From a virus, in the IMG/VR virus record IMGVR_UViG_3300042549_003051, positions 1-24,428 of that record: DNA of 24,428 nt; one strand, given 5' to 3'. The position numbers and the translations under genes were made by a program. The notes beneath the pieces are model-generated. The model did not search any database and was not told where the DNA came from. It worked only from the letters and a program-made list of their open reading frames with translations. Position 1 is the first letter of the stretch, and every line of letters starts with the position of its first letter. Below are positions 1,141-5,944 of this stretch, piece after piece.

Positions 1141-1479
1141 TTGGATAATTTTATAGCTCATTTTTTAGATGGAGGGTGGGTAGTACTATTGATTGGGGCG
1201 GCAGGCATGGTGGCTAGACTCGTAACTACTAATGAAGAACAATCTAGTTCTGATGTGGTTAAGAAGATGATTAGCTCTATGATTGCCTCCCTAATTGCAT
1301 GGTTTGTTATGGAACAGTTTGAAGTTGATTCTATGTATAAGGCTATTGCTTATGGGCTAGTAGGACTAAACAGTCCTGAAATAATACAAGGAGTACTTAA
1401 AATAAGTGGGCAATTTGCCTCAGACCCAATGTCATTTATGAAACAACAAAATAAACCAAAACCAAAAAGAAAACGATGA
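1141..1479 (+). CDS. Putative holin (LydA-like), TTG start
   Basis: 112 aa with hydrophobic segments near residues 12-28 (GWVVLLIGAAGMVARLV), 44-58 (ISSMIASLIAWFVME) and 66-77. The C-terminus is strongly basic (KPKPKRKR), a common holin feature. The arrangement resembles LydA/phage_holin_3-type proteins. The start is taken as TTG at 1141, directly after the previous stop, because this preserves the whole first TM segment; the first ATG (1207) would remove most of it. The gene overlaps the next one by 4 nt. It may work with the preceding two-TM protein as a holin/antiholin pair, which is an inference. Confidence 0.6.
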   Translation: MDNFIAHFLDGGWVVLLIGAAGMVARLVTTNEEQSSSDVVKKMISSMIASLIAWFVMEQFEVDSMYKAIAYGLVGLNSPEIIQGVLKISGQFASDPMSFMKQQNKPKPKRKR

Positions 1480-2132
1480 AAAACATTTTATTAATCATAC
1501 TAACAGCGATTATCCTGTCTGTTGCTGGGTTCGGTAAGTATGTAGAATATACTATTAAAAAAACAGCTACAAGTGTATATGAAGATAGACTAGTGCCTCA
1601 ACCTTATTTGAGTCGAAAGTTTGATTATTACGGCTCAACCATACAAGACCAAATTAAAGTTATTAAAGGAGGGAAAATAGACCTAGTTGCTATCCAAAAG
1701 GAGAAAGATATAACAGATACAATGTGGGCAGCTTACCTAAAGACTTACCAGACTAGAGAAGAGAAGGAAGTAAGTAGTAAAGCTCAGATGTATATTGATA
1801 CGGCAGACGCTTATTTTGAAAAGATTTCAGCAGATGGTATCGTTACAGATGAGGAAGCTAAGGAGATGGATAAAAAGATTTATCCTGTTTTAGAGTATGT
1901 AAATGACCTAATAGACATTCAAACCACAATTGGAGCTAAAGACACTAAAGGAATGATAAGCCTACTTAACAAGTTTTCTAATTTTATGATAGGTGCTATA
2001 GCTTTGGCTATCGCTCTTTTAGGTTCTATCATCTATGATATGTTTAAAAATAGAAAACAAGTTGTAAAAAAGGTTGTTAAAAAAGCGGCAAAAAAGCCAA
2101 TTAAAAAAGCAGCTACTAAAAAGAAAAAGTAA
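1476..2132 (+). CDS. Bitopic membrane protein with chemoreceptor-like four-helix bundle
   Basis: 218 aa. TM1 spans about residues 3-20 and TM2 about 168-190. Between them lie about 145 helical residues with features of the four-helix-bundle ligand domain of methyl-accepting chemotaxis proteins: YEDRLVPQPYL at 35-45 resembles the family's YEDRLVPL signature, followed by a W-x(2)-Y-x(2)-T segment (84-90), EEKE and a final LIDIQ helix. In a chemoreceptor a HAMP domain would follow TM2. Here only about 27 mostly Lys/Ala residues follow (KKVVKKAAKKPIKKAATKKK), similar to histone-H1-type tails. It lies between holin and endolysin genes with 4-nt and 1-nt overlaps, so it is probably co-translated with the lysis proteins. 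An antiholin or lysis-timing sensor is possible, but function is not established. Confidence 0.6.
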   Translation: MKNILLIILTAIILSVAGFGKYVEYTIKKTATSVYEDRLVPQPYLSRKFDYYGSTIQDQIKVIKGGKIDLVAIQKEKDITDTMWAAYLKTYQTREEKEVSSKAQMYIDTADAYFEKISADGIVTDEEAKEMDKKIYPVLEYVNDLIDIQTTIGAKDTKGMISLLNKFSNFMIGAIALAIALLGSIIYDMFKNRKQVVKKVVKKAAKKPIKKAATKKKK

Positions 2133-2567: not shown

Positions 2568-3167
2568 ATGAAACTAGACGCATTAGCTACGAAGATTCCA
2601 GCTCAGGTATTATCAGAAATACCATCAGTAATAGAGAAGTTCTCTATAGATAGCCCACTTAGGTTGGCTCATTTCTTGTCTCAATGTGCTCACGAGAGCG
2701 GTAACTTTAAGGCTGTTACTGAAAACCTTAATTATGGTGCAGCAGGACTGCGTTCTATATTTGGAAAATACTTTAAAGATGATGTGTCAGCTAAGGCTTA
2801 CGAAAGAAAGCCTGAAAAAATAGCTAATAAAGTATATGCTTCTAGAATGGGGAACGGGGATGAAGCTAGTGGAGATGGGTGGAAGTTTAGAGGAAGAGGA
2901 TACATTCAATTAACCGGTAAGGATAATTACAGCCAATTCGACAAGGTTGTAGAAGATGATATCCTGGCTAACCCTGATTTGATAGCTACAAAGTATCCGT
3001 TAATGTCTGCAGCTTTCTTCTTTGAGAAGAATAGTCTATGGAAAATATGCGATGGGGGAGCTGATAAAGAAGATGTAATAGCTCTTACAAAGCGTATAAA
3101 TGGCGGCACACATGGGCTTGATGATAGATTAGCTAAGTTCAGCTTATTCAACTCACTGCTCAGTTAA
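2568..3167 (+). CDS. Endolysin, glycoside hydrolase family 19
   Basis: 199 aa, about the usual length for a single-domain GH19 endolysin. It should cleave the glycan strand of peptidoglycan. Seen in order: HFLSQCAHESGNF (35-47) with the catalytic-acid candidate Glu43; ENLNYGAAGLRSIFGKYF (52-69); IANKVYASRMGNGDEASGDG (85-104) with a second Glu at 99; the signature FRGRGYIQLTGKDNY (107-121); and near the C-terminus TKRINGGTHGLDDR. There is no signal peptide, so export depends on the upstream holins. It starts one base after the preceding stop. The family call is firm; the exact bond cut is known only from the family. Confidence 0.92.
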   Translation: MKLDALATKIPAQVLSEIPSVIEKFSIDSPLRLAHFLSQCAHESGNFKAVTENLNYGAAGLRSIFGKYFKDDVSAKAYERKPEKIANKVYASRMGNGDEASGDGWKFRGRGYIQLTGKDNYSQFDKVVEDDILANPDLIATKYPLMSAAFFFEKNSLWKICDGGADKEDVIALTKRINGGTHGLDDRLAKFSLFNSLLS

Positions 3168-3200: not shown

Positions 3201-3458
3201 ATGAAAGACAACGTAGTAGATAAAGTTAAAGCGTGGCTCATGCCACTTTTATTAAGCGGATTCTGCTATATATTTTATAGTGATATAAGAGAAATGAAGT
3301 CTGACATTAAGACGCTACTAGGTCAGAGCAGAGAATACTCTGTTAGGATAACAACAACAGAAAGAGATATAATAGAATTAAAAGGCAAAATAGCATTATA
3401 TGAAAGATACCCTGCAAAGCATGAGGAAATTTATGACACCAAAAAGAATCTTAGGTAG
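3201..3458 (+). CDS. Small membrane protein with coiled coil, lysis module
   Basis: 85 aa. One TM segment at about residues 11-26 (AWLMPLLLSGFCYIFY) is followed by heptad-like helix (DIREMKSDIKTLLGQSREYS, then TTTERDIIELKGKIALYE). The pattern WLMPLLLSG...Y..DI.EMK.D.K.LL.QS resembles a small family recalled from Flavobacterium phage lysis regions (DUF7365-like, not searched). Topology is N-in with a periplasmic or cytoplasmic coiled coil. A pinholin or antiholin partner of the endolysin is possible. Its end overlaps the next gene by up to 59 nt. Confidence 0.6.
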   Translation: MKDNVVDKVKAWLMPLLLSGFCYIFYSDIREMKSDIKTLLGQSREYSVRITTTERDIIELKGKIALYERYPAKHEEIYDTKKNLR

Positions 3459-3732
3459 TCTAATTGCAGTTGTATTTATCTTAATGGTCATTTTTGTGAA
3501 AAAATCACAAAAAGAACTCAAATTAGACCTTTCAAAGTACGATTCAACCATAAATATTGCTAAAATAGAGATAAAATCCCTAGAAAAAGAGTCTAAAGAG
3601 ATAGAGAAGCAAGTATTATCTAAAGAATATTCAGTTAAAGAAATATACATTCAGTATGAAAAAGATACTACTTATGTCAATAGTATGTCTATTGACTCTA
3701 TCCAAAGCTGGTTCACAGACCGTTACAAATAA
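3400..3732 (+). CDS. Spanin-like inner-membrane protein (i-spanin candidate)
   Basis: 110 aa from ATG 3400; in-frame ATGs at 3421 and 3433 give shorter forms with less overlap and are equally plausible. A TM segment (RILGSLIAVVFILMVIFV, about residues 16-33) follows a short basic N-terminus. The remainder is charged helix with coiled-coil character (IEIKSLEKESKEIEKQVLS) and ends in SIQSWFTDRYK. This N-in, periplasmic coiled-coil layout is that of Rz-type i-spanins, which join the inner to the outer membrane in the last step of Gram-negative lysis. The next gene is nested across its last 77 nt in another frame, like Rz/Rz1 pairs. The role is inferred from layout. Confidence 0.55.
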   Translation: MKDTLQSMRKFMTPKRILGSLIAVVFILMVIFVKKSQKELKLDLSKYDSTINIAKIEIKSLEKESKEIEKQVLSKEYSVKEIYIQYEKDTTYVNSMSIDSIQSWFTDRYK

Positions 3733-4054
3733 CGATACAGTAAAAATCCACGTAGACGTGGCAAAGAAGGTCATTAAAGACCTTTTATTATTAGATGCTA
3801 CCAAGAAGCACAATGACACCTTAGTGTCAATTTTGAGCCTTAAAAACGATATTATTACTAATAAGGACTTACAGATAGAAAACTACAAGAAAATAGGCTT
3901 AAATCAAGAGATGAAAGAGGCTATCTATGATAGTGAACTATCTAGGAAGAGCATGGAGTTAAAAAAGACCAATAAGAAACTAGCCATTCAGCAAAAAGTG
4001 AAGTGGGTTTATTTAATTTTTGGTATTTTAGCAACATCATTTGTATTAAAATAG
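3656..4054 (+). CDS. Exported coiled-coil protein with C-terminal TM segment (spanin-like)
   Basis: 132 aa. The N-terminus is a signal-peptide-like segment (MKKILLMSIVCLLTLSKAGS, likely cut around SKAGS-Q). A long charged helical region follows (residues 25-110), and a C-terminal TM segment (WVYLIFGILATSFVL, about 117-131) closes the protein. It begins 77 nt inside the preceding gene in a different frame. The layout resembles a unimolecular spanin, with an outer-membrane N-terminus and inner-membrane C-terminus. No lipobox is seen: the only early Cys (residue 11) is inside the hydrophobic core with SIV before it. The spanin role is therefore inference from topology, nesting and neighbours. 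Confidence 0.55.
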   Translation: MKKILLMSIVCLLTLSKAGSQTVTNNDTVKIHVDVAKKVIKDLLLLDATKKHNDTLVSILSLKNDIITNKDLQIENYKKIGLNQEMKEAIYDSELSRKSMELKKTNKKLAIQQKVKWVYLIFGILATSFVLK

Positions 4055-4907: not shown

Positions 4908-5944
4908 AATATATGGCAAAATCTTGCGATTTGCCCGTGTATTTTATTGTGTAAAAATCCTTCGATAGCTTTAGGTGCATGGACATAACCATTCCTCGAA
5001 TGCCACGAATCCGCTCCTGATGGACTTCTTAGGGTCTCAACATTAACACCCATATAATCTTTAGAGCGTTTATGATGTAAGTGGTGTACGTAGAAATACT
5101 TATGCTTACACTCTGACCAATCTAATCCTGCCTCATGAGCCATTAGCATAGGCAAATCAGCCTCCTTTGCTCCGTCTCCGTGTGTTGTGCCTATTAGGTT
5201 ATTATGGTATCTAAAATACTTTCTGTGAGCTATTGAGCAGTTGAACATAACAGCCCTATCTTTTGAGAACCAACTGTTTATTGTATCTGCCAGGAAGAAA
5301 CCATTTGTATAGTCATGATTCGATGGGTCATACTGAACATATACGTCAGCAATCTCTCTAAGAACTTCTATGATTTCTATGTGCATTTGCTTTGCAATCA
5401 AGAAGTTATCGTACCACATACCATCTGTATCCTGCGGAGTTCCTGATGTAGTTTGTCTCTTTGGGGTATCTACGTGTAAAATATCGTTGCCTATTACATA
5501 AAGGATTCTATCTTTTTTGAAACCACTAGACTTCTCTATGATTCCATAGACACCTTCCATAACTCTTTTTACAGCTATATCTACGTTATAATCCTCTCCT
5601 GTCTCAAATGCACTAGATAATTTACCTATGTGAATATCTGCTGGGTCAACAACTAACAAATGGTAGTCGTCTTGTTTTAGAACTCTGTCTCTTGTTGGGT
5701 ATTTATACTGAGGAGAATACTTGGTCATAGAGTCGATAATCTCGTCTCTAACTTCCATGTATCCCTTACCTCTGTTTGCTACGTTAATAGAGAAGTGGTC
5801 TCCCTTGAACCAATAATGTTTTACATCTTGTATGGGGATTCCGTTTAACTCGCACTCGTTAGATAGGGCTTCATGTCTAGTTCTAATGTCTTTTAGAATC
5901 TCGAATTCCTCTTGCGTAATGCGAGGTCTGATTTCTTTGTTCAT
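4904..5944 (-). CDS. Metallophosphoesterase-like protein
   Basis: 346 aa. Calcineurin-like phosphoesterase motifs appear in order: D-x-H at 103-105 within DPADIHIGKL, GND at 152-154 with a following His157, SNHD at 208-211 (the GNHD/E motif with Ser for Gly), THGDG near 254-258, and a His cluster HHLHH at 287-291. These residues would bind two metal ions and act on a phosphodiester, possibly nucleic acid. The about 100-residue N-terminal extension is of unknown type. Genes like this are common in phage replication/recombination clusters and are often loosely annotated. Substrate not known. Confidence 0.75.
   Translation of the reverse strand: MNKEIRPRITQEEFEILKDIRTRHEALSNECELNGIPIQDVKHYWFKGDHFSINVANRGKGYMEVRDEIIDSMTKYSPQYKYPTRDRVLKQDDYHLLVVDPADIHIGKLSSAFETGEDYNVDIAVKRVMEGVYGIIEKSSGFKKDRILYVIGNDILHVDTPKRQTTSGTPQDTDGMWYDNFLIAKQMHIEIIEVLREIADVYVQYDPSNHDYTNGFFLADTINSWFSKDRAVMFNCSIAHRKYFRYHNNLIGTTHGDGAKEADLPMLMAHEAGLDWSECKHKYFYVHHLHHKRSKDYMGVNVETLRSPSGADSWHSRNGYVHAPKAIEGFLHNKIHGQIARFCHIF

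Follow-up and report, generated by a model that had tools for sequence, protein, structure and literature searches.

The timing of phage lysis is mostly explained by the build-up of holin together with simple antiholins, and the main antiholin proposed to sense an outside signal is RI of phage T4. The periplasmic domain of RI binds the T4 holin as a heterodimer and blocks its multimerisation (PMC11413866), and one published account proposes RI as a sensor of periplasmic DNA (PMC8385771). A second regulator has been described in phage N4, where the two-transmembrane (TM) lysis regulator gp62 is encoded beside the pinholin gp63 and the two co-occur in 60 of 65 genomes; the "Receiver domain" of this system is the name given by its authors to a cluster of mutations in gp63 (PMC12642591).

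The window analysed here is a stretch of 24,428 nucleotides of viral DNA (IMG/VR record IMGVR_UViG_3300042549_003051), and all features described below lie on its plus strand. The gene under study, referred to as 4HB (1476-2132), has an ATG start and encodes a protein of 218 amino acids with two TM segments and a predicted periplasmic four-helix bundle of the chemoreceptor type. It lies among genes that the initial annotation, made by inspection of the sequence, had termed a phage lysis module.

Organisation of the lysis cassette

The assignment to a lysis module was borne out by the genes downstream of 4HB. The GH19 endolysin gene (2568-3167) encodes a product that matched PF00182 above the cut-off (28.8 bits) and the endolysin family phrog_181 with an E-value of 1.2e-65. 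It is followed by overlapping Rz-like (3400-3732) and Rz1-like (3656-4054) genes in an embedded arrangement, together occupying 3400-4054, the first of which matched the Rz-like spanin family phrog_739 (E 1.3e-3). Just upstream of the lysis genes, positions 504-896 encode a protein of unknown function (DUF7936/phrog_7802) which is also found near hol2 and 4HB in some relatives. A count of the Bacteroidota -7 promoter motif was no higher than expected by chance.

Immediately before 4HB lies hol2 (1141-1479), a holin-like gene with a TTG start. All 13 of the diverse hol2 members scanned matched the PHROG holin family phrog_6384 (best E 5.3e-7), while the LydA-type Pfam family Phage_holin_3_3 was matched below its cut-off, with an E-value of 5e-4 in the window and likewise sub-threshold for some relatives. 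Direct comparison with LydA or LydC of phage P1 yielded a weak, collinear alignment. These profile matches, together with the genomic setting, indicate that hol2 is likely a holin. It may not be the main holin of the cassette, given that other candidates, hol1 and Phage_holin_4_1, occur in cassettes containing hol2 and 4HB. The hol1 gene (880-1140) encodes a second small membrane protein and possible holin, its position within the cassette varies, and no significant family match was obtained for it in scans of Pfam and PHROG. The TTG codon of hol2 (1141-1143) immediately follows the in-frame stop codon of hol1. This start codon is kept as TTG throughout the clade of the window and is ATG in divergent relatives; a conserved weak TTG start might keep holin output low.

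The overlaps of 4HB with a holin-like and an outer-membrane-protein gene, noted in the initial annotation, proved to be exact. The sequence ATGA at 1476-1479 contains the stop codon of hol2 and the start codon of 4HB, and TAATG at 2130-2134 joins the stop codon of 4HB to the start of the next gene (2132-2566). On the basis of these overlapping reading frames, 4HB is predicted to be produced together with the lysis proteins. The gene at 2132-2566 encodes a small, secreted, beta-rich protein of the outer-membrane type (OMP) with a signal-peptide-like N-terminus, and is the third gene of the usual trio. No match to the OMP family (including, in addition to the window protein, the product of 5099-5554 in locus L181) was found in Pfam, PHROGs or NCBIfam. 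An OMP gene followed 4HB at 63 of the 80 distinct loci with room for one and was missing from the remaining 17; OMP is therefore a frequent, not an obligate, third member.

The composition of the cassette varied among relatives. Of 65 loci that were long enough to judge, 51 had an endolysin of the GH19 or M15 type within reach, mostly 230-1090 nt downstream, and 14 did not; among six of the loci without either enzyme that were inspected, one (L206) has an amidase-like gene. The hol1, Phage_holin_4_1 and spanin-like genes are present in some cassettes and missing from others. The cassettes of L189, L191 and L192 run hol2-4HB-hol1-M15-spanin genes; they lack OMP, and an M15 peptidase stands where GH19 is otherwise found. 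In these loci the lysis enzymes have been exchanged while hol2 and 4HB were retained.

Relationship of 4HB to chemoreceptor sensory modules

Hydropathy analysis of 4HB agreed with the initial annotation in placing about 145 residues between two TM segments. TM1 (amino acids 1-20; 1476-1535) was detected by hydropathy at residues ~1-19 and forms part of an unbroken helix of residues 2-39 in the structural model. The periplasmic four-helix bundle (residues ~21-165; 1536-1970) was delimited from the AlphaFold2 (AF2) helices and Foldseek, and TM2 (residues ~166-189; 1971-2042) from the AF2 model and from hydropathy, which placed it at residues ~163-181. The YEDRLVP signature to which attention had been drawn was located at residues 35-41 (1578-1598); it is kept across the family and aligned to SDRVIP of an Agrobacterium methyl-accepting chemotaxis protein (MCP).

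The protein ends about 30 amino acids past TM2. The place of the receptor's HAMP domain is occupied by a Lys/Ala-rich tail (2043-2129) with the sequence KNRKQVVKKVVKKAAKKPIKKAATKKKK, predicted to be cytoplasmic and disordered. Profile scans yielded no match to a HAMP or a signalling (MA) domain in any 4HB member, in agreement with the suggestion that both had been replaced by the tail, and none of these proteins has the domain content of a full MCP. Across the family the tail has a median length of 33 amino acids, with 44% K+R and 3% D+E. The C-termini of hol2 and of 4HB are alike in forming long tails, rich in Lys/Arg and basic far beyond the needs of topology; those of 4HB contain KKPxxKK-like repeats and reach 54 amino acids. 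Contact of these tails with lipid or nucleic acid is possible.

The initial annotation had proposed, by eye, a likeness to the ligand domains of chemotaxis receptors, and had named the lack of a profile match or of a predicted four-helix bundle as the result that would speak against it. Both were looked for and both were found. The window protein matched Pfam 4HB_MCP_1 (PF12729) with 19.5 bits (E 7.8e-4), below the curated cut-off of 27 bits, and 23 of 24 close relatives matched the same family at E <= 1, the best at 1.6e-5, also below the cut-off. Divergent relatives of 32-45% identity, reached via the neighbouring hol2 gene, gave stronger results. When scanned singly, seven of nine exceeded the cut-off across the full domain, with scores of 28 to 43.7 bits and a best E-value of 2.8e-11; TarH (PF02203) was the second family matched. 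A tblastn search of 72,556 plasmids with the 4HB protein of locus L191 returned a single match, which was to an annotated Agrobacterium MCP (26% identity over 87% of the query, E 1e-5). Comparison of profiles aligned the phage proteins with this MCP at a probability of 98% from TM1 to just beyond TM2. The phage profile scored 65.6 bits on the N-terminus of the MCP, against 10.0 bits for the best of 1000 shuffled versions, half of which kept the TM segments in place.

The conserved residues of 4HB are mostly those common to MCPs (DR..P, W.AYL.T..T.EE and L.DLQ) and thus of the fold-keeping kind. No ligand pocket was identified in 4HB. A phmmer match to kinesin (E 0.02) was rejected as a chance coiled-coil similarity, and a database entry labelled as a 4HB MCP of an ssRNA phage (A0A8S5L4P1) was set aside as a metatranscriptome fragment of unclear origin.

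The AF2 model of 4HB was built from 51 diverse sequences, and had a mean pLDDT of 85.4 and a pTM of 0.73; it replaces a first model obtained from 24 near-identical sequences (pLDDT 75.8). The predicted helices comprise residues 2-39/42-62, 70-88, 94-117 and 125-196, mostly at pLDDT 87-98, in the order kinked TM1/alpha-1, alpha-2, alpha-3 and alpha-4, the last continuing into TM2; pLDDT was below 50 from residue 198 in the tail. The modelled protein thus consists of TM1, an up-down-up-down periplasmic four-helix bundle and TM2. The top matches in a Foldseek search of the PDB were four chains of the ligand-binding domain (LBD) of the chemoreceptor Vc1313, with a probability of 1.00, TM 0.61-0.67 by target and E-values of 0.007-0.02 (TM 0.65-0.67 and E 6.7e-3 for the best hit). 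The sensor domains of KinB, Tar, Tsr and NarQ appeared further down the list. These E-values are modest, which is common in fold searches with helical bundles. The OspC/Vsp bundles of Borrelia ranked close behind Vc1313, and these Lyme matches were read as a generic likeness among helical bundles because the sequence indicates MCPs. The fold search supports a relation between the modelled 4HB and chemoreceptors, and would not prove it alone. Taken with the Pfam matches, the comparison with the Agrobacterium MCP and the shuffle control, it upholds the likeness seen by eye: judged by sequence and predicted fold, 4HB is a real homologue of the four-helix-bundle sensory modules of chemoreceptors.

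The 4HB gene is under purifying selection. Within the clade of the window, dN/dS estimated by a simple counting method from near pairs only was ~0.06 for the bundle, 0.06 for TM1, 0.12 for TM2 and 0.34 for the tail, compared with 0.09 for hol2 and ~0.07 for OMP. The constraint on the bundle is thus as strict as that on the holin-like gene. In the tail, charge is retained and not sequence.

Pairing of hol2 and 4HB

A search with P0001 as the query identified 62 viral contigs, all with hol2 and 4HB in that order and nearly all with OMP next. The set of loci was widened with hol2 as the starting point, followed by divergent 4HB proteins. From the side of hol2, 4HB was found directly downstream in 253 of 253 hol2 loci with enough room; these represent 93 distinct DNA spans, since loci of one contig can recur. 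From the side of 4HB, hol2 was present at 319 of 320 phage loci, and the one exception (L103) is a locus in which the end of the contig falls inside the 4HB gene. The initial annotation had placed 4HB with a holin; the pairing is universal, and what is new relative to that annotation is that 4HB is inseparable from hol2, an obligate partnership in both search directions. An antiholin is expected to be encoded with its holin, and 4HB stood beside hol2 in all testable loci, hol2 being assigned as a holin from its profile matches.

The loci encode 84 distinct phage 4HB proteins with identities down to ~32%. The four-nucleotide ATGA overlap of hol2 and 4HB (-3 geometry) was present at 42 of 77 distinct loci, and in almost all of the others the two genes were separated or overlapped by a short stretch. 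Protein distances were correlated with r = 0.93 for hol2 and 4HB, 0.87 for 4HB and OMP and 0.79 for hol2 and OMP; high values of this kind arise from shared descent alone, so only the difference between the pairs is informative. The pair was also found on contigs of 167 kb (L230) and 322 kb (L236) from very large phages, and therefore crosses phage size classes.

Within the data analysed, uncultured viral contigs are the sole source of the hol2-4HB pair. A tblastn search of 50,697 GenBank phage records, for which three 4HB proteins and one hol2 served as queries, found no relatives. No match to 4HB or hol2 was obtained among GTDB genome contigs by the patterns used, and no isolate or prophage was found.

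Proposed role in lysis and comparison with known systems

As hol2 is the one protein never missing beside 4HB, the simplest reading is that of a holin-regulator pair. Since 4HB has neither HAMP nor kinase-control parts, a signal read by the bundle could evidently be passed on only by the TM helices or the short tail, with another membrane protein as the recipient. We consider the case evenly balanced that 4HB is the dedicated regulatory partner of hol2, an antiholin-type lysis-timing protein that would read the state of the periplasm or membrane through its receptor-derived domain; the binding of hol2, its inhibition and the sensing are what we infer. More tentative is the wider proposal that, in a large group of phages, the extracytoplasmic half of a chemoreceptor has been turned into a holin-bound sensor that tunes the time of lysis to conditions in the periplasm or outside the cell and so acts as a ligand-gated lysis clock. 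The new kind of lysis-timing control suggested in the initial annotation is, as an interpretation, the most plausible reading. In favour of a regulator we count the homology and predicted fold, the obligate pairing and its distance correlation, the usual ATGA overlap, the nearby endolysins, the holin-profile matches of hol2 and the precedents of P1 and T4. What counts against it is the modest strength of those profile matches, the presence of other holin candidates, the fold-keeping character of the conserved residues with no ligand pocket identified, and the loci that have no GH19 or M15 endolysin nearby.

Under such a mechanism, 4HB would be an inner-membrane protein with both termini inside, its chemoreceptor-type bundle projecting into the periplasm. 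The TM helices, perhaps aided by the bundle, would in one state keep hol2 as an inactive heteromer in the manner of an antiholin. The bundle might then read a change, which could be a ligand, contact with the outer-membrane partner, or the loss of either wall or membrane tension or the proton motive force. This change would shift TM1 and TM2 in the fashion of a receptor, so that hol2 is either released or restrained further, and the time at which the endolysin passes across the membrane would be set as a result.

The main alternative, which we judge unlikely, is that hol2 and 4HB are obligate subunits of a single hole-forming complex in which the bundle is structural, serving spacing or oligomerisation, and senses nothing. 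The exceptionless pairing and the close correlation of hol2 and 4HB distances are explained by subunits no less well than by a regulator, both proteins have cationic C-terminal tails, and the four-helix-bundle domains of receptors are dimerisation modules. Known holins, however, usually act without a partner of the size of 4HB, the domain derives from a receptor family, and the lydA-lydB layout of P1 suits an antagonist. Less probable again is an envelope module of hol2, 4HB and OMP which effects superinfection exclusion or guards the infected cell, and lies beside the lysis genes without control of a holin. The persistence of hol2-4HB at the loci that lack OMP, the endolysin found nearby at most loci, the holin-like character of hol2 and the failure of the PADLOC defence-system models to match all argue against such a module, although the trio in its common form reaches from the inner membrane across the periplasm to the outer membrane, OMP is there at most loci, and in some large phages no GH19 or M15 endolysin lies within range of the pair.

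The inner-membrane anchor, the long helical periplasmic part and the adjoining OMP gene could also be taken to suggest that 4HB and OMP form a spanin-like bridge that disrupts the outer membrane. This is very improbable, since separate Rz-like and Rz1-like genes are present in the cassette of the window and in some others and OMP is not universal; moreover, an i-spanin has a single TM segment and a coiled periplasmic part and is joined by an o-spanin lipoprotein, whereas 4HB has two TM segments and a compact bundle. Lowest of all we place the idea that 4HB is a dominant-negative partner of host receptors or sensor kinases, forming mixed dimers through its bundle and altering host signalling during infection. 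Its homology to receptor bundles, which dimerise, is in keeping with this, but the obligate tie to hol2 would be left unexplained and the HAMP and signalling parts are missing.

The pair makes the question of whether phages sense conditions in order to time lysis testable through a domain with well-studied receptor relatives. A known class of sensory domain is here linked strictly one-to-one to a holin-like gene, in no fewer than 84 distinct versions among phages, and the pair provides a marker for the lysis cassettes of uncultured phages in which the lysis genes are otherwise unannotated. Searches of the open-licence literature found no antiholin built from a chemoreceptor module, and nothing relevant that links 4HB_MCP or MCP four-helix-bundle proteins to holins, antiholins or phages.

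Among the described systems, LydA/LydB of phage P1 shares the arrangement of a small holin gene, lydA, followed by that of its antagonist, lydB, with a stop/start overlap of four nucleotides. The hol2 protein falls weakly within the LydA-type holin profile, its direct similarity to LydA is weak, and LydB is unrelated to 4HB in sequence (hhalign probability 0.1%). The likeness to RI and the holin T of phage T4 is conceptual, in that periplasmic domains would decide the activity of a holin in both systems; no sequence relation to 4HB was detected for either T4 protein (hhalign probability below 1%), and RI is small with a cleavable signal peptide, whereas 4HB has two TM segments and a receptor bundle. 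In N4, gp62 is likewise a two-TM regulator encoded next to a holin, but with 109 amino acids it is without the periplasmic sensory bundle. The chemoreceptor modules themselves (PF12729, TarH and the Vc1313 LBD) resemble 4HB in sequence along the entire domain, from TM1 into the first part of TM2, in the DR..P, W.AYL.T..T.EE and LIDLQ motifs and in predicted fold. Unlike these receptors, the phage protein stops after TM2 with a Lys/Arg-rich tail, is encoded by a phage and is tied to a holin-like gene.
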